Both the position numbers and the translations under genes were made by a program. DNA of 64,000 nucleotides, taken from Desulfurivibrio alkaliphilus AHT 2 (GTDB lineage Bacteria; Desulfobacterota; Desulfobulbia; Desulfobulbales; Desulfurivibrionaceae). Position 1 is the first letter of the stretch; every line of letters begins with the position of its first letter. This document shows positions 10,099 to 56,423 of this stretch, piece by piece. Location: contig NC_014216.1 in the NCBI RefSeq assembly GCF_000092205.1, forward strand, positions 2,237,742-2,301,741, read 5' to 3'. Below the pieces are notes generated by a model. The model ran no database searches and was not told where the DNA came from. It was given only the letters and a program-made list of their open reading frames with translations.

Positions 10099-10126
10099 AC
10101 CAGTCCCTCCCCAAGACTTTGCTCAA

Positions 10127-10181
10127 CGTAAGCGAACAGCCCGTAATACCTGTAGGTTAGTGCCCCTGGTGGAACGGTTAC
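10127..10181. repeat. intergenic repeat shared with the fliK-kinase gap
   Basis: Plus strand GTAAGCGAAC (10128-10137) and GAACGGTTAC (10172-10181) form imperfect arms that include the HD-gene stop. The inner part (GCCCGT, then TTAGTGCCCCTGGTG) recurs on the minus strand at 40264-40299 inside the segment between fliK-like and kinase genes. The 15-mer from 10127 is also found at 47374-47388. Confidence 0.55.
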
Positions 10182-10726
10182 TGCTCAACAACCAGGCAGT
10201 CGGCCAGTTCTTCCGGGGCCATGGGCAGGCGGGCAAAGAGGTTATTTTCCAGCCGGCGGCAGAGGGCAAAATTTTGCCGGATCAGTTCCTGGCGCGCCGG
10301 GTCCCGGGGGGCATAGCGGCGAATCACATCATCCCGGCGCTCCTCCAGGCTTACCAGCCGGTCGTGGTTGACCCGCTTGTCGGCATAAAAAACAATCTCC
10401 CGCTCTCCGCAGCGGCCGTTGAATCCATCATGTAAATGCACATGTTCCGCCACCAGCGGGGCCAACTCTTCGTAGCCATGCTCCCGGCAGATCTCTGCCC
10501 CGAGTTCGGCGTGGGAACAATCGCCATCAAAACACAAGGCTTTGGCGATATCGTGCAACAGCGCCCCGGCCACCGCCAGATCAACCCGCACCGGTTCGCC
10601 CTGATCCGCCAACCCCTGGGCCAGGCATTCCGCAACCCGGGCCACCAGCAGGGAATGGGCCCGGATATGGGCCGGCATCCGGTAGTGGTCCATTAAGCGT
10701 AAGCAGTCGGCCTGACTGGGAATCAT
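10178..10726 (-). CDS. HD-domain phosphohydrolase inside the haem cluster
   Basis: About 182 residues with an HD metal-dependent hydrolase fold: a His in RAHSLLVARVAE, the HD pair in GALLHDIAKA, and a later His in LVAEHVHLHDG. Such proteins usually cleave phosphate esters or nucleotides; the substrate is unknown. The ATG at 10726 is preferred because GGAAAG lies eight bases upstream; a GTG at 10774 would extend the protein by 16 residues. It lies between hemE (about 50 bases upstream) and hemH (79 bases downstream) on the same strand. The context suggests co-expression but not a role in haem chemistry. Confidence 0.85.
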   Translation of the reverse strand: MIPSQADCLRLMDHYRMPAHIRAHSLLVARVAECLAQGLADQGEPVRVDLAVAGALLHDIAKALCFDGDCSHAELGAEICREHGYEELAPLVAEHVHLHDGFNGRCGEREIVFYADKRVNHDRLVSLEERRDDVIRRYAPRDPARQELIRQNFALCRRLENNLFARLPMAPEELADCLVVEQ

Positions 10727-10777
10727 AGTGGCAACTTTCCAGCTGATCACGGGGTCCAAGGGGCATCCAGCCACCGC

Positions 10778-16177: not shown

Positions 16178-16179
<2 letters not shown>

Positions 16180-16284
16180 AAACGTGGAGCAGCACCGCAT
16201 CTTCGGGCGATCAGCCAGGCTTACGTACAGGAGTACGCTGCGCCTGGCTGCTTGCCCGAACCTGCGGCACTGCTCCACGTTTTC
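16178..16284 (+). repeat. 107-bp palindromic element E1 (behind hisD)
   Basis: The 15-bp outer arms (16178-16192 and 16270-16284) are perfectly complementary. The inner halves pair with small internal loops at fixed positions, and the tip is GTAC-AGGA-GTAC. Left core CAGCACCGCATCTTCGGGCG and right core GCCCGAACCTGCGGCACTG recur in three other long copies. The right arm ends GTTTTC, so the hairpin may also act as terminator for hisD. Confidence 0.9.
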
Positions 16285-39154: not shown

Positions 39155-40252
39155 TCAAGCTTTCACGTCAATCAGCCGCCGCTCGCCGCCGCCGGTGGTT
39201 TTTTCCAGGGCCTCTTTTAGGGCCGGCAACAGCGCCCCGGCACTGACCAGGCAGCGAAAATCCGCTTCATACCCCAGCTCGGCCAGACGCCGGCGCAACT
39301 CCCCCAGCCGGCTCCGCAAAAAATCGGCCGCCTCGGCGCTGGCCAGGAAAAAATCTCCCACCAACCGCTCGCCCTGCACTCGGACCTGCAACTGCAATTC
39401 ACCCAGCCTGCTCATCTCGAGGAAAAAGGCCAGGGTCATGACCTCCTCCCCCCCTTCTTCCTTGCTTTCTTCCCGGCTCAGCAGCCAACTGCCGGCCCCG
39501 GCGTCGAAAGCAAAAAAGCAGGGCAGCAGCCACAGGGGCATCTGCTGGGTGGCCGGCTGCTGCTCATTGATCCCGACCATGGCCTCAAGCATCCCGCCGA
39601 CCCTGCCCAGCGCCGCCAGCAGCTCCCGGTCAACCCCGGCCGGTGGCTGCTGGCGCAAAATGGTCAGTGCCGCCTGCAGTTGTTCCGCCAAGCCGGCGGG
39701 GGGCCGGCTGGCACCGGAACCGGCTGCGGCTGCCGCAGCGGACCAGGCGGCGCCGCCCCGCTCGCCAAAACCGCCGGGCCGCAGCCAGGAAGCCAGTTGG
39801 ATGATCTTTTCCGGGGCCGGCTGCGGTCCCAGGGCCAGGCGCGCCAGCAAATCCGCCGGTTCTGCCGGCAGGCCGCCGCCGCTGGCCGCCCTGACCAGGG
39901 GTGCCAGTTGTCCCAGGCGGCTCAACTCGCCCAGCCCTCCGGTGGCCTGTTGCAGGAAGCGATACATGGCCCCCTTCTGGTCCGCCAAAGCCAGGCGGGG
40001 TTCACTGCCCCCCTGGCGCACCTCAAACCAGAACTCCCGGCCCGGGGTCAGCGGCACCGAACTGCGGGCGTTGACCCGTTCCCCGGCCAGCTCCAGCACC
40101 ACTCGGCCGTCGGCCCCGGCACTTACCACCCGGCCCTGGAGCAGACGCCCCGGCTCCCAGGAAGAAGCAGGCCCGGCGGGCCGCTCGCCCGGCGGGGCGT
40201 CTCCCCGGCCCTGAACCGGGCGGGTTGGCAAGGTCAGCTCGCTGATCTTCAT
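39155..40252 (-). CDS. FliK-like flagellar hook-length control domain protein
   Basis: A 365-residue protein with an Ala/Gly/Pro-rich N-terminal two-thirds and a compact C-terminal domain. That domain (LAFFLEMSRLGELQLQVRVQGERLVGDFF, quoted in parts: FLEMSRLGELQLQV and FLRSRLGELRRRLAELGY) fits the hook-length control C-terminal domain, in which L-G-x-L-x-v-x-v is the core. It likely belongs to flagellar assembly, although no flagellar genes adjoin. The ATG at 40252 has only a weak ribosome site. Before insertion of the upstream 143-bp segment it would have overlapped the kinase stop as ATGA, so it may have lost translational coupling. Confidence 0.65.
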   Translation of the reverse strand: MKISELTLPTRPVQGRGDAPPGERPAGPASSWEPGRLLQGRVVSAGADGRVVLELAGERVNARSSVPLTPGREFWFEVRQGGSEPRLALADQKGAMYRFLQQATGGLGELSRLGQLAPLVRAASGGGLPAEPADLLARLALGPQPAPEKIIQLASWLRPGGFGERGGAAWSAAAAAAGSGASRPPAGLAEQLQAALTILRQQPPAGVDRELLAALGRVGGMLEAMVGINEQQPATQQMPLWLLPCFFAFDAGAGSWLLSREESKEEGGEEVMTLAFFLEMSRLGELQLQVRVQGERLVGDFFLASAEAADFLRSRLGELRRRLAELGYEADFRCLVSAGALLPALKEALEKTTGGGERRLIDVKA

Positions 40253-40263
40253 AGAGGAATCCG
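40249..40263. repeat. 15-bp direct repeat, left copy (target-site-duplication-like)
   Basis: TCATAGAGGAATCCG is identical to 40407-40421. It spans the fliK-like start codon. The two copies bracket the 143-bp segment 40264-40406. Confidence 0.85.
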
Positions 40264-40299
40264 TTCACCAGGGGCACTAAACTGCCGGCTTAACGGGCC

Positions 40300-40406
40300 G
40301 TAAGCGTTCAGCAGTGCCGCAGGTTCGGGCAAGCAGACAGGCGCAGCGTACCCCTGTACGTAAGCCTGGCTGATCGCCCGAAGATGCGGTGCTGCTGAAC
40401 GCTTAC
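40300..40406 (-). repeat. 107-bp palindromic element E2 (behind the REC-GAF kinase)
   Basis: Arms GTAAGCGTTCAGCAG (40300-40314) and CTGCTGAACGCTTAC (40392-40406) are perfectly complementary. The core and the GTAC-N4-GTAC tip match E1, E3 and E4. Read on the minus strand it directly follows the kinase stop codon. The remainder of the inserted segment (40264-40299) matches the repeat at 10127-10181. Confidence 0.9.
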
Positions 40407-40421
40407 TCATAGAGGAATCCG
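40407..40421. repeat. 15-bp direct repeat, right copy
   Basis: TCATAGAGGAATCCG, identical to 40249-40263, containing the stop codon (TGA on the minus strand) of the REC-GAF kinase. Confidence 0.85.
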
Positions 40422-42311
40422 GACGGTTGCCTCCATCCCGCCGTTTTTGGCGGTTTTAAGGGAAAAGGTGCCGCCGTGGGCCTCCACCGCCTTTTCCACC
40501 AGGGTCAGGCCCATGCCGGTACCGTAGGTCTTGGTGGTAAAAAACGGGTCCCGGGCCCGCTCAACCTGAGAGCTCGGCAGCCCGGTACCGGTATCACGCA
40601 CCTTGACCACCGCCTGCTCCTCTTCGACCAAGATGGTAATCGTAAGTTGACCACCGTGGGGCATGGCCTCGACGCTGTTTTTCAGCAAATGCAGAAAAAC
40701 CTGCCGCATCTGGCGTTCATCGGCATTGGCCGTTACCCCGCCGGGCGGACACAGGATATCCCAGGTAATCTGCTGCCGCTTGAGCTCCTGCTGCAGCAAC
40801 AGCAGGGTCTTTTTCACCAGGTCGCAAAGCTGCAGGGGTTGTTTTTCCAATTTGACCTGGCTGACAAAATCGAAAAGCTCGTTCAGAGTGGACTCCAGAC
40901 GAGCGGTTTCCCGGGTAATCACCTTGATATATTTACCCCAGCTTTCATCGTCGGACTTTTTCTCCAGAATGCGGGAAACTCCGCCGATGGAGGTGATGGG
41001 GTTGCGGATGGTGTGGACCAGTTGGGCTGCCATCTGACCGATGGCCGAGTAACGCTCGGCTTCAACCAGCAGGTCTTTGCTGCGGTTGAGCTCATCGTAG
41101 AGGGCCTCCAACTCGGCCAGCCGCTGCTGCATTTCCTGGTACAAGTGACTCTGCTCAATGGCCAGGCTGGCCTGGCTGGCAAAGAGCTCCAGAGCGCTGA
41201 CATGGACACCGGTGATGGCCCTGCCGGTCACGTAGTTGTCGGCAATGATCACCCCGAAGGCCCGCCCGGGGGAATAGAGCGGCACCACCACAAAGCTGTC
41301 CTCACCCAAAATACTGGTCAGTTCGTGGGGCACCGGCAGGGGGTCGCCGGCGGGCAGATGCCCCCCATTACCGTCCTTCTCGCCGTTGCCCCAGTGGCGG
41401 TGCAGCAGCAGGGGAAAACCGCCCAGCTCCCGGGAGACCAGTGCACTGCGGCGGCTGTTCACCGCCTTGATCAGCAGGTTATCGTGCTCATCGGCCGACA
41501 CGGTAAGGCGCCGCACGATGCGGTTGACCTCCGAGTCATCTTGCGTGCACCGCTGCTTGATATCCTGCACGATCTGGCCGAAATCCATCCCCTTTTCCCG
41601 CATCTCTCCCCAGATCCGGCCGGCCTCTTCCCGGCAGCCCGGACCGATGGCCATATGTCCCCGCAGTTCCTTGTCATCCTTGGTGAACATGGCCAGAAAG
41701 GCACGGTTGAAGCCCAGCCCCTCCTGGGCGGTGATCCCCACCAGCACCGCCTGCAGAATCTCGTCGAGTTCCACGGTGCTGAGGTAAACGTTGTTCATCT
41801 TCAAAGAAAGCTGGTGGAGCAGCCGCAGCCGGAAATGAGCCTCCTCCAGCTCTTCCTGGTATTTACGGTTTTCCAGCAGCAGGCGGCGTTTTTCCAACGC
41901 CCGGCGAGCAACATGAAAAATCTGGTCGAAATTGGCCGGCTTGGAAATGTAATCGGTGGCCCCCTGGCGCATGCACTCCAGGGCCACCTGCAGATCAGCC
42001 ACTCCGGTGAGCATCACCACCGCGATATCGGAATCTTTTTCCACCACCCTGGGCAGCAGGGTAACCCCGTCGATATCGGGCAGGCCGATGTCCAGCAGCA
42101 TCAGGGCAACCTTGCGCCGGGTCAGCAGATCAAGTAGCGAGGAAGCGTCGGCACACTCCTCCACCGCCAGCCCATGGCTGGCAAAATAACGGTGCAGGGG
42201 TTCACGGATAGCGGGATCATCGTCGACGATGACCGCCACCTCCCCATCCCGGAGCAGCTGATCCAGGGTTAGAGAGACATGTTGGGGAACTCCAGCGAGG
42301 GTCGCCACCAT
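40407..42311 (-). CDS. hybrid response regulator/histidine kinase (REC-GAF-HisKA-HATPase)
   Basis: A cytoplasmic protein of about 634 residues. An N-terminal receiver domain has the acidic pocket DDD (30-32), phospho-acceptor Asp74 in LMLLDIGLPDIDG and the Lys in DYISKPANF. A GAF-like sensor domain (about 170-385) is followed by a HisKA domain (AQLVHTIRNPITSIGG) and an HATPase_c domain (HLLKNSVEAMPHGG, DTGTGLP, GTGMGLTLVEKAVEAHGG). The input receiver in front of a kinase suggests a phosphorelay step. The ATG at 42311 is used; a TTG lies three codons upstream and no ribosome site is clear. Its last codons are duplicated by the insertion described at 40249-40421. Confidence 0.88.
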   Translation of the reverse strand: MVATLAGVPQHVSLTLDQLLRDGEVAVIVDDDPAIREPLHRYFASHGLAVEECADASSLLDLLTRRKVALMLLDIGLPDIDGVTLLPRVVEKDSDIAVVMLTGVADLQVALECMRQGATDYISKPANFDQIFHVARRALEKRRLLLENRKYQEELEEAHFRLRLLHQLSLKMNNVYLSTVELDEILQAVLVGITAQEGLGFNRAFLAMFTKDDKELRGHMAIGPGCREEAGRIWGEMREKGMDFGQIVQDIKQRCTQDDSEVNRIVRRLTVSADEHDNLLIKAVNSRRSALVSRELGGFPLLLHRHWGNGEKDGNGGHLPAGDPLPVPHELTSILGEDSFVVVPLYSPGRAFGVIIADNYVTGRAITGVHVSALELFASQASLAIEQSHLYQEMQQRLAELEALYDELNRSKDLLVEAERYSAIGQMAAQLVHTIRNPITSIGGVSRILEKKSDDESWGKYIKVITRETARLESTLNELFDFVSQVKLEKQPLQLCDLVKKTLLLLQQELKRQQITWDILCPPGGVTANADERQMRQVFLHLLKNSVEAMPHGGQLTITILVEEEQAVVKVRDTGTGLPSSQVERARDPFFTTKTYGTGMGLTLVEKAVEAHGGTFSLKTAKNGGMEATVRIPL

Positions 42312-42497
42312 AAAAAACACCAGTAAGATTAAAGCCCATGCTGCCGGTCACGGGATCGGTGAGCGCCGGCCAGGCTAGACCATGCTAGGAGGACGGAGGG
42401 CCAAAAGTCAAGCCTCTAAACAACCCTTGGCGGCCGGCTCCTGGCAATCCTTGGCAGCCCGTTGACAAAGCCACGCTTTGCTTTTTCAAGGGGGTTG

Positions 42498-47413: not shown

Positions 47414-47520
47414 TTAAAAGCCCGTCAGTGCCGGAGATTCGGGCAAGCGGCCCGGCGCCGCGTACATCAGTACGCAAGCCGGGCCGATCGCCCGAAGATT
47501 CGGTGCTGACGGGCTTTTAA
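47414..47520 (-). repeat. 107-bp palindromic element E4 (behind the REC-PAS-GGDEF gene)
   Basis: Arms TTAAAAGCCCGTCAG (47414-47428) and CTGACGGGCTTTTAA (47506-47520) are perfectly complementary and look like a normal bidirectional terminator stem. The conserved core and GTAC-N4-GTAC tip occupy what would be its loop. On the minus strand the arm includes the GGDEF gene stop codon. A 15-mer at 47374-47388 upstream also occurs at 10127. Confidence 0.9.
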
Positions 47521-48920
47521 CGGAGGATGCAGCGGTTGCGGCCGGCCTCCTTGGCCGCGTAGAGGTTGCTGTCGGCTCGGGCCAGCAGCGATTCGGGGGT
47601 TTCATCGGTTTCAAACTCCGCCACCCCGATGCTCATGGTTTTCTGTACCGCCACCCCTTCCGTGGGGTGAAATTCCAGCTCGGCAAATTTACGCCGCAAC
47701 CGTTCCGCCAGCCCAAGGGCGTTTTCCCCCGTGGTTTCCGGCAGAATAACGGCAAACTCCTCGCCGCCGATACGGCAGGCCAGGTCGTTGAGCCGCACCG
47801 TGTTCCGCAGCAACTCGCCCATGGCCGCCAGCACCCGATCACCCTGGGGATGACCGTAGGTATCGTTGAAGTGCTTGAAGTTGTCGACATCCATCATCAG
47901 CAGGCTCAGGACATTACCGTAACGCCGGGCCCGCTCCACTTCCGGGATCAGGTTTTTGTTGAAGTAGCGCTTGTTGTAGAGCCCGGTGAGTTCATCAATG
48001 ATGCTCAGCTCCTTGTAGCGCTGCTCGCTTTCCTGCAGAGCCTTCTCCGCCCGCACCCGGCTGGTGACATCGGAAATATGCTTAACGATCCCCACCATGT
48101 CACCGGCCGGACCGCGAAATGGGGTGGCCAGTACATGATAATGGGAGGGGCCGCCGTTGGGGCCGGGGCGCTCGATATCGTTCTCCACCACCTCTTCCCC
48201 GGCCTTGATCCGCCGCATAGGGCAAGCCGGGCTGTGACACATGGTTGAAGGGAAAACCTCGTAGCACTTGGCGGTTTTGGCCTTGACCGAGGAAACTCCG
48301 GCCATCCGCAAAAATGCTTCGTTAAAACGCAGGATCCGGTGCCGGGTATCGATGAGCAGAATGCCGCCGGCTACGGTCTTGAAGATCTGATTGACCTCAA
48401 TATAGGCCCGGGAGGCCTCGGCGGCCATTTCGTTGGCCCGGGTAATGGCGCTTTCCAGTTGGGCGTTGAGCGACTCCAGTTCCCGGCGATGCTTCTCCCT
48501 GGCCTCTTGGTGTTCCTGGAGTTGGCGCATGTCATCGCTGTTTTTTCGGGCCGCCGCCAGCCAGGCCTGGAAAAAATCCCGTTTTACCGGTTTGGTCAAA
48601 TAGTAGGTCACCCCGGCCTTTAGGGCCTCTTCCATCTCCTGGGGCCGCTCCTGGGTGGTGACCATCAGGATGGTCACATAGGGGCCGTCGGCGTGCTGCC
48701 GGATCAGGCGGGCCAAGGCCAGGCCGTCCATGCCGCGCAGCAGCCAGTCCAGCACCACGATGCGGGGATTATGACGCTGAAAAACCTCCCAGCCGCGCTC
48801 GGCGTCTTCACAGGCGTATACCTGGTAGCCTTCAATCTCGGCCACCGCCTCGAACAACCGCCGGGTAACGGGATCATCCTCCACGATCAGCAACGGTTCC
48901 TTGGTGGTCTGCCGGGCCAT
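47517..48920 (-). CDS. response regulator diguanylate cyclase (REC-PAS-GGDEF)
   Basis: A 467-residue signalling protein. The receiver domain has EDDP near residue 15 and phospho-acceptor Asp in IVVLDWLLRGMDG, with the Lys in YLTKPVKRDFF. A coiled-coil linker (about 125-175) leads to a PAS domain (FKTVAGGILLIDTRHRILRFNEAFL). The GGDEF domain contains DELTGLYNKRYF, MDVDNFKHFNDTYGHPQGD and CRIGGEEFAVILPE. The GGEEF site suggests active synthesis of cyclic di-GMP controlled by phosphorylation. AGGGG precedes the ATG. ddl ends directly upstream with no gap. Confidence 0.92.
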   Translation of the reverse strand: MARQTTKEPLLIVEDDPVTRRLFEAVAEIEGYQVYACEDAERGWEVFQRHNPRIVVLDWLLRGMDGLALARLIRQHADGPYVTILMVTTQERPQEMEEALKAGVTYYLTKPVKRDFFQAWLAAARKNSDDMRQLQEHQEAREKHRRELESLNAQLESAITRANEMAAEASRAYIEVNQIFKTVAGGILLIDTRHRILRFNEAFLRMAGVSSVKAKTAKCYEVFPSTMCHSPACPMRRIKAGEEVVENDIERPGPNGGPSHYHVLATPFRGPAGDMVGIVKHISDVTSRVRAEKALQESEQRYKELSIIDELTGLYNKRYFNKNLIPEVERARRYGNVLSLLMMDVDNFKHFNDTYGHPQGDRVLAAMGELLRNTVRLNDLACRIGGEEFAVILPETTGENALGLAERLRRKFAELEFHPTEGVAVQKTMSIGVAEFETDETPESLLARADSNLYAAKEAGRNRCILR

Positions 48921-55572: not shown

Positions 55573-55592
55573 TCACGGGGTGCCCCGTGGTT
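55571..55592. repeat. hairpin with CACGGGG-TG-CCCCGTG core behind the M16 gene
   Basis: AATCACGGGG pairs with CCCCGTGGTT (one T-G pair) around TG. It starts within the M16 stop codon. Same core as 27215-27248. Confidence 0.65.
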
Positions 55593-55640
55593 GAACGATA
55601 TCCCAAGGATCCCCATGAGGGAAAAAAGGAACCATCTTTG

Positions 55641-56318
55641 ATGAACGAGCCCGTCGACCTGCAACGTCCCTTGATCGCGCCCTCTATTCTGTCCGCGGAT
55701 TTTGCCCGCCTGGGCGAAGAAGTGACAGCGGCCGCCGCCGCCGGCGCCGATGTGATTCACGTGGATGTGATGGATGGCCGCTTTGTCCCCAACATCACCA
55801 TCGGACCGCTGGTGGTGGAAGCGGTGCGTAAAATCACCGATCTGCCCCTGGATGTGCATTTAATGATTGAAGAGCCGGAACGCCACCTGGAGGCCTTTGC
55901 CGCCGCCGGCGCCGACTGGATCACGGTGCACGTGGAAACCGGCTATCATCTGCACCGCACCGTGCACAAGATCAAGGAACTGGGCAAAAAGGCCGGGGTG
56001 GTGCTGAATCCGGCCACCCCGCTGAACGCTCTGGACTATCTGCTGGCGGATGTGGACCTGGTAATGCTGATGAGCGTCAATCCGGGCTTTGGCGGCCAGA
56101 GTTTTATCCCTTCAGCCCTGGAAAAAACCCGGGCCCTGAAACAGATGATAACCGAGCGGGGATTGCAGACCGCCATCGAAATCGACGGCGGCGTCAGCCC
56201 CAAGAGCATCGGGGCCATCCGGGAGGCCGGCGCCAACATCTTCGTCGCCGGCTCGGCGATTTTCGGTCAGCCCGACTATGCCGCGGTAATCCGCGCCATG
56301 AAAGAAATCATCAGGTAA
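55641..56318 (+). CDS. rpe: ribulose-phosphate 3-epimerase
   Basis: Interconverts ribulose 5-phosphate and xylulose 5-phosphate in the pentose phosphate pathway. The 225-residue TIM barrel has [32 protein letters not shown], the catalytic Asp in the same motif, [24 protein letters not shown] and [11 protein letters not shown]. The ATG at 55641 has AAAGGA upstream; the frame is open 18 codons further. The stop codon lies inside the left arm of element E3. Confidence 0.97.
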
Positions 56319-56423
56319 TCGTTCAGCAGCACCGCATCTTCGGGCGATCAGCCAGGCTTACGTACTGATGTACGCTGCGCCTGGCTGCTTGCCCGAACCT
56401 GCGGCACTGCTGAACGATTACCT
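56313..56423 (+). repeat. 107-bp palindromic element E3 (behind rpe)
   Basis: GTAATCGTTCAGCAG (56315-56329) pairs perfectly with CTGCTGAACGATTAC (56407-56421); two more outer pairs extend to 56313 and 56423. The arm includes the rpe stop codon. The core and the GTAC-TGAT-GTAC tip match the other copies. Confidence 0.9.

Follow-up and report, generated by a model that had tools for sequence, protein, structure and literature searches.

A MITE-like hairpin element separates an overlapping kinase/FliK-like gene pair in Desulfurivibrio alkaliphilus AHT 2 and belongs to a high-copy family found in this genome mostly at stop codons

Introduction

In the stretch of DNA analysed here (the window; 64,000 nucleotides of the genome of Desulfurivibrio alkaliphilus AHT 2) a gene for a histidine kinase is followed on the same strand by a gene for a FliK-like protein, and the interval between the two is bounded by two copies of the 15-mer TCATAGAGGAATCCG. 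The locus thereby raises the question whether the two genes once overlapped and were driven apart by a mobile element and, if so, what kind of element it was and why it came to lie exactly there. A sequence-only reading of the window had proposed that a 143-bp insertion with a 15-bp target-site duplication had split an ATGA-coupled gene pair. We have compared the junction with those of related genomes, collected further copies of the inserted segment and analysed their boundaries, their structure and their position relative to genes. The features of the window are listed in Table 1, where the inserted element is designated E2.

Table 1. Coordinates of the kinase/FliK-like junction and of other copies of the element, in positions of the window
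Feature	Position	Strand	Remarks
FliK-like protein	39155..40252	-	Flg_hook; ATG 157 nt downstream of kinase stop codon start
Target-site duplication copy 1, TCATAGAG (CTCTATGA on the coding strand)	40249..40256		Includes FliK-like ATG 40250-40252
E2, MITE-like element, 150 bp (family consensus 151 nt)	40257..40406	+	Stub first on +
E2 left end, GAATCCG	40257..40263	+	Same letters as host flank 40415-40421
E2 stub, TTCACCAGGGGCACTAAACTGCCGGCTTAACGGGCC	40264..40299	+	Related to short element 10128-10181
E2 hairpin, 107 bp, inner terminal repeat GTAAGCGTTCAGCA / TGCTGAACGCTTAC	40300..40406		Fold and compensatory changes
Target-site duplication copy 2, TCATAGAG	40407..40414		Includes kinase TGA 40407-40409
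Histidine kinase	40407..42320	-	Response_reg, HisKA, HATPase_c; weak GAF; stop codon right at E2 edge
54-bp hairpin-less form	10128..10181	-	Exact 8-bp duplication TGCTCAAC at 10120-10127 / 10182-10189
E1, hairpin copy	16178..16284	+	Outer arms GAAAACGTGGAG/CTCCACGTTTTC, not GTAA arms; overlaps stop of called gene ending 16179
E3, hairpin copy	47414..47520	-	Outer arms TTAAAAGCCCGT/ACGGGCTTTTAA; overlaps stop of called gene 47517-48920 (-)
E4, hairpin-only copy	56315..56421	+	No 8-bp duplication seen

Results

The junction and its empty counterpart

The 15-mer was found twice in the window, at the two places given by the sequence-only reading: the copy at 40407-40421 contains the end of the kinase ORF and the copy at 40249-40263 the ATG of the FliK-like gene. 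The reading had also pointed to a CTATGA context that would yield an overlap upon excision and, in fact, in silico removal of 158 bp restored CTATGA, the octamer CTCTATGA and a 4-bp ATGA stop/start overlap. The check that it had suggested, an inspection of the junction in close relatives, gave the expected answer in G003, a relative of the same genus with a kinase that is 87% identical to that of AHT 2. Its junction is an empty site (CGGATTCCCCTATGA): in CGGATTCCCCTATGAAGATC the kinase (...RIPL*) runs through an ATGA overlap into the FliK-like protein (MKIG...), the element is absent and the 15-mer is present as a single copy, identical at 14 of 15 positions. E2 has entered the stop/start overlap of the kinase and FliK-like genes, and both coding sequences have been retained. 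The kinase itself is unaltered. The longest Shine-Dalgarno-like match upstream of the fliK ATG is GGTGA, 13 nt away, and the translational coupling of the FliK-like gene to the kinase has probably been lost.

The reading had counted a missing overlap in relatives without the element as evidence against the insertion, and a wider survey of kinase loci told against its picture. The overlap was found in only one, G003, of 21 orthologous kinase loci outside the AHT 2 genome. The kinase locus of G004 has no adjoining FliK-like match, and at the 19 orthologous loci of other genera the FliK-like gene lies on the same strand, 14-351 nt beyond the stop of the kinase gene. No match to the element was present in 17 of the 19 spacers. 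As G003 is the only one of the 21 loci to have it, the overlap belongs to the Desulfurivibrio lineage and not to the family as a whole. Related inserts were seen elsewhere in the kinase-fliK gap of another genus, about 93 nt (L048, genome G011) and about 27 nt (L059, G019) past the stop; each has 7 of 8 bp duplicated, and that of L059 is stub-first.

The empty-site test was run on three copies, E2, L014 and L009, and all three sites are empty in G003. For L014 and L009 each empty site forms one alignment across 499/500 nt of joined flanks. The L014 site lies between the genes for aspartate carbamoyltransferase and a dihydroorotase-type domain protein. At this junction AHT 2 has the element with an 8-bp duplication and G003 has none; G004 (L277) carries a related hairpin with other arms (GTGAAAAGGTGCAGCAG...) directly past the stop of the first gene. 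Hairpins have apparently been gained here independently and recurrently, in two species.

Length of the duplication and boundaries of the element

The 143-bp insert was searched against the single contig of 3,097,763 bp that makes up the genome; the best 40 of 290 candidates, all of them full-length, were scored and fetched with their flanks. Among these best 40 of 290, 39 were further copies, at 90-94% identity. The seven bases preceding the insert are exactly GTAACCG in 21 copies, and the remaining 19 mostly have a near variant of it. The corresponding end of E2, GAATCCG, is two substitutions off this family consensus. With a fixed boundary the 8-bp flanks of these 40 copies were identical in 15 cases and had one mismatch in 8, compared to 0.06% identical among 1560 mismatched left/right pairings. 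With a boundary free to shift by 1 nt, 19 of 39 were identical and 30 of 39 had at most two mismatches (one of the best 40, L010, was left out as it had no placement in a longer host stretch). The identity between left and right flanks was confined to exactly 8 positions (26-32 of the best 40 of 290, against 5-16 of 40 at the surrounding positions).

The target-site duplication of E2 is thus 8 bp and not 15 bp; the other 7 bp belong to a degenerate end of the element. Since the flank identity spans 8 positions, and since, among the 15 copies whose octamers are identical at the fixed boundary (from the best 40 of 290), E2 alone extends the match by seven further bases, the other 14 extending it by 0-2, the 15-mer is best described as an 8-bp duplication next to a 7-bp match that arose either by chance or by later conversion between the flanks. 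The proposal of the sequence-only reading therefore holds as to an insertion with target-site duplication and fails as to its length. Likewise, the insert is not 143 bp: the element is 150 bp long, as seven bases of the repeat are its end. The similarity of the remaining insert bases to 10127-10181, also noted by the reading, was borne out, and 10128-10181 is in fact a 54-bp element in its own right, with an exact 8-bp duplication.

Anatomy and forms of the element

The family consensus of 151 nt starts with the outer end GTAACCGTTCACCAGGGG, followed by the stub and then by an inner GTAANCGTTCAGCAG; the latter and the right end are complementary and form a 107-bp hairpin. The 150-bp element is bounded by GTAANCGTTCA and comprises a 36-bp stub and the 107-bp hairpin. 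The minus strand of E2 and its flanks (40230-40430) folds with -93.4 kcal/mol (z -5.83). Compensatory change was studied in 30 hairpins from six genomes (AHT 2, G003, G004, G011, G304 of the same order and G356 of the same phylum), and both-sided changes were found at 20 of 38 consensus pairs. For example, pair 5-107 is AU in 9 hairpins, GC in 8, UA in 6, CG in 6 and AC in 1, and it is complementary in all of the best 40 of 290 copies. Such change fits selection for the hairpin; it could also be produced by arm-to-arm copying within the palindrome.

Three forms of the element are flanked by 8-bp duplications: the full-length form, a hairpin-only form of 108 nt (L204, TGATGTTC) and the stub-only form of 54 nt in the window. 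In G003, G004 and G011, where only 8-bp matches were searched for, such duplications also accompany copies. The GTAA of the stub-only form supplies the stop of the called gene 10178-10774 (-), and that of E4 the TAA (56316-56318) of the called gene 55587-56318 (+). E1, E3 and a copy outside the window, L190:2767-2872, share the hairpin core; their outer arms differ from one another, are self-complementary and are rich in A-tracts and T-tracts (GAAAACGTGGAG, TTAAAAGCCCGT and AAAACGGG). This gives the impression of a core transplanted into bidirectional terminators, each of them overlapping a stop codon. The edges of these three copies were placed by eye at the ends of the arms.

An Rfam search of the window returned tRNAs only, and one of 40200-40480 gave a single match, to a plant miRNA model (24.2 bits versus a cut-off of 77.5). 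A known structured RNA family was rejected for the element, no Rfam match scoring above the gathering score. A consensus scan of 39900-40700 gave no promoter or terminator within the insert.

Copy number and distribution

The end sequence GTAANCGTTCANCAG has 219 exact matches in the AHT 2 genome, against none for a reversed control. The 264 kb sampled by position (the window and ten 20-kb stretches) contained 19 places with the element, which extrapolates to about 220 genome-wide. The relatives of E2 in this genome may accordingly number about two hundred. Beyond AHT 2, GTAANCGTTCANCAG occurs in 45 of 395 genomes of a sample of the phylum, mostly once, with the highest numbers in G003 (59), G008 (19) and G096 (13). 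A 150-bp query found matches, some of them weak, in 23 of 27 genomes of the family at E 0.001 or better. Among named genome records, a 20-mer from the hairpin core retrieved 43 stretches that belong to two Desulfurivibrio genomes and one Desulfobulbaceae bin (the AHT 2 genome itself possibly lying outside this search).

The layout of stub and hairpin was also observed with quite different sequence in another family of the phylum (L131:2891-3045, G356; exact 8-bp duplication gtaaaata), and with different sequence in another family of the order (L128:1-161, G304; a duplication of which 7 bp are visible, at the end of a contig). This shared layout suggests an old lineage of elements.

Position relative to stop codons

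Genes were called with a codon-usage model (our own caller, without curated annotation) on empty sites made by joining the flanks. For the 30 copies with at most two mismatches in the duplication (from the best 40 of 290), the native stop lay inside or touched the duplication (-6 to 2 nt) in 14; seven copies fell within the final 40 bp of a gene, six at other intergenic positions and three elsewhere inside genes. By position, nine of the 30 depart from a stop-codon rule (the six intergenic ones, one of them 8 nt past a stop, and the three within genes), and a single copy of the 30 falls 3-20 nt downstream of a stop. In the background as a whole, 0.7% of positions are stop zone; the share is 5.0% when only stop-zone and intergenic, i.e. 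tolerated, positions are counted. Against the latter share, 14 stop-zone versus 6 other intergenic copies in AHT 2 is a strong excess (p ~2e-14). In G003, G004 and G011 the numbers were 6 versus 14 (p ~3e-4, with the background of the AHT 2 genome), so that the effect is replicated in other genomes, but more weakly.

The tests on G003, G004 and G011 and those on orientation and frame used 33 copies (at most one mismatch, good ends) from 60 loci, 57 of which had a match. The stop-zone copies are predominantly hairpin-first, i.e. the gene reads into the hairpin end (23 of 26; 15/17, 3/3, 3/3 and 2/3 by set; 21 of 23 when three copies with a poor duplication are left out). In 12 of the 13 cases with a displaced native stop, the GTAA of the element was in frame and its edge provided a TAA (the exception is L090; chance 1/3, p ~2e-5). 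The stretches chosen by position gave the same picture: of the 17 copies that could be evaluated, 16 abut or overlap a stop, or 11 of 12 when those of the window are set aside, and L186:8893 is the exception. Two of the 19 places could not be evaluated, one lying at the end of a stretch and one being a 32-bp fragment. Taken together, most copies examined in AHT 2 have a stop codon no more than about 10 nt from the beginning of the hairpin, a pattern that covers position, frame and orientation. E2 fits it exactly: the kinase runs into the hairpin end, with its TGA followed directly by the hairpin.

The A+T content of the stop-zone octamers is 0.577, that of other intergenic octamers 0.473 and that of the duplications 0.562. 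We rejected A+T preference as the cause of the placement, this difference being too small for an excess of about 14-fold (14/20 versus 5.0%). No fixed target motif was found among 61 sites, which have in common only an A+T-rich middle and a C or G as last base in 72%.

Discussion

Affiliation of the family

The family to which E2 belongs is a MITE by every feature tested: inverted-repeat ends, an 8-bp duplication and empty sites. GTAA ends mark IS66, and they are present in the two IS66 elements found here, L041 in AHT 2 and L095 in G003. The resemblance extends a little further, as 13 of the 14 outermost nt of the hairpin end agree with an IS66 end of AHT 2 (GTAAGCGCTCAGCA; the ends of L041 are GTAAGCGCTCAGCAAACCCC and GTAAGCGCTCAATGAACCCC). 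Unlike IS66, the family has no transposase, measures 54-151 nt and has no subterminal sequence in common with the IS66 found: only about 14 terminal nt are shared with L041 and L095. The length of the duplication equals that given for the IS66 elements ISPpa5a and ISPpa7, for which 8-bp duplications are listed in the tabulated part of PMC3281130. The only IS66 found in AHT 2 (L041:1311-2842) is internally deleted, at 1532 bp versus 2422 bp in G003 (about 890 bp missing), so that no intact IS66 candidate for current mobility was found in this genome. That of G003 (L095:139-2560) is flanked on both sides by an exact direct repeat of 116 bp, which exceeds 8 bp by far and whose limits coincide with the edges of the element.

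A match to the IS66 transposase was obtained in 3 of the 27 genomes of the family (24 had none), though 23 of the 27 match the element, and in 5 of 18 further genomes of the phylum, all partial. No autonomous parent was found by searching for IS66 transposase in the AHT 2 genome, in the family and in the 18 genomes of the phylum, and by reading ends in 20 stretches around end matches in other genomes of the phylum. As L041 lacks some 890 bp and only 3 of 27 genomes of the family have any IS66 match, we call the element IS66-like rather than IS66-derived.

GTAG-type REPs are associated with RAYT proteins, and RAYT/Y1 transposition of REPs is not known to leave target duplications. These REPs are likewise high-copy palindromes at gene ends. 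We nevertheless rejected membership of the RAYT-mobilised REPs on the basis of the GTAA tag (in place of GTAG/CGTC), the 151-nt consensus and the clear 8-bp duplications; the copies here measure 107-151 nt versus the 20-40 bp given for GTAG REPs. Donation of a stop codon also occurs among those REPs, according to PMC3733652, and constitutes a partial precedent. The REPs of E. coli that lie within 15 nt of a stop also place a hairpin just past it, with 446 of 4,072 (~11%) that close in the published counts drawn on here versus 16 of 17 evaluable sampled copies abutting a stop in AHT 2; the stop-zone copies studied here in addition have a preferred orientation. The enterobacterial RU-1/ERIC and RU-2/YPAL and the pneumococcal RUP are also non-autonomous palindromic elements of 100-170 bp, many with target duplications and sometimes fused to gene ends, as described in sections of PMC2229807 and PMC2759123. 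In the same sections most of them have ends with a TA motif, the duplications of YPAL/RU-2 vary from 3 to 26 bp, and a stop-codon rule is not mentioned. Our literature search returned no paper that joins translational coupling with the insertion of a miniature inverted-repeat element in an operon. In the AHT 2 genome paper (PMC5016858) the word 'repeat' appears once, meaning CRISPR.

What happened at the junction

We are highly confident that E2 represents the insertion of a high-copy non-autonomous transposon that was placed with its hairpin at a stop codon, a statement about the event and its position and not about the cause of that position. A true 15-bp duplication around a 143-bp element is very improbable. 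E2 does have an exact 15-bp direct repeat and is alone in having it; but the flank identity in the best 40 of 290 copies ends after exactly 8 positions, which rejects a 15-bp duplication as a property of the family, the 14 other copies with exact octamers never exceed two extra bases, and GTAACCG or a near variant mostly precedes the insert. More remote still is an origin by rearrangement, in which the hairpin would have been gained by recombination between dispersed copies or by slippage and the direct repeat would be due to chance. It would suit the hairpins of E1, E3 and L190:2767, whose outer arms are particular to each site and which lack a visible 8-bp duplication, but not the duplications of a single length at dozens of unrelated sites nor the three empty sites in G003, and for E2 it is ruled out by the empty site with a single copy of the target. 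Because these three hairpins have arms of their own and show no 8-bp duplication, transposition may not be the only way in which copies spread or change.

The insertion of E2 probably proceeded as follows. A transposase acting in trans would have made a cut, staggered by 8 bp, in the ATGA where the kinase and FliK-like genes overlap. Repair then duplicated CTCTATGA and provided each gene with its own copy of the shared codons, as the duplication and the empty site show, and E2 landed with its 107-bp hairpin directly past the kinase stop. In most copies examined in AHT 2 the hairpin sits either at a native stop or at the TAA from the element's own GTAA end. Finally, selection may have tolerated or favoured copies only where translation ends at the edge of the element, with the terminating ribosome covering the foot of the hairpin.

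Such selection is the simplest cause of the placement at stop codons, and we consider it probable. A transposase or cofactor that directly targets stop codons or sites of termination in one orientation, so that the position is set at insertion, would account for the sharp peak at the stop, which lies in the duplication or touches it in 14 of the 15 good copies at -6 to 20 nt (p ~3e-5 for an expected share of 0.40), for the single orientation in 23 of 26 and for the apparently independent hairpins at the aspartate carbamoyltransferase stop of AHT 2 (with an 8-bp duplication) and G004 (with other arms). We regard it as rather unlikely, in view of the stop trinucleotides that occur without fixed phase inside the duplications and of the 61 target sites with little more than an A+T-rich middle and a final C or G; moreover, the simple loss of copies whose hairpin is left unshielded would directly produce both the frame rule (12 of 13) and the orientation rule. 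The hairpin might also be a transcription terminator or a stabiliser of mRNA 3' ends that spread for its usefulness past stop codons. The arms of E1, E3 and L190:2767, which with their A-tracts and T-tracts resemble bidirectional terminators, and the structure maintained via compensatory changes would agree with such a role, although arm-to-arm copying of the palindrome could give the same changes. At E2, on the other hand, the scan showed no terminator at the hairpin, no U-run follows it, and E2 and L014 both have a next gene downstream on the same strand that strong termination would silence; a terminator or stabiliser is accordingly quite unlikely as the explanation. Tentatively, and with more doubt than confidence, one may go further than selection at single sites: the family would end up at stop codons in one orientation, by targeting or because the ribosome masks the hairpin, leaving some 200 genes that end in a hairpin that possibly sets their expression and dissolves ATGA couplings.

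Conclusions

The finding of the sequence-only reading was right in substance and its interpretation as an insertion is supported. A small transposon has separated two overlapping genes and has harmed neither of them, because the 8 bp that were duplicated carry the shared ATGA. Taken alone, the insertion of E2 is nothing unusual for a MITE, and it is the stop-codon rule behind it that deserves further attention. The case exposes, in a little-studied lineage, a regularity that consists of a hairpin at the stop, a TAA supplied by the element and a preferred orientation. Many natural sites, with the empty sites of a relative as controls, thereby allow a direct test of how hairpins at stop codons are tolerated or used.
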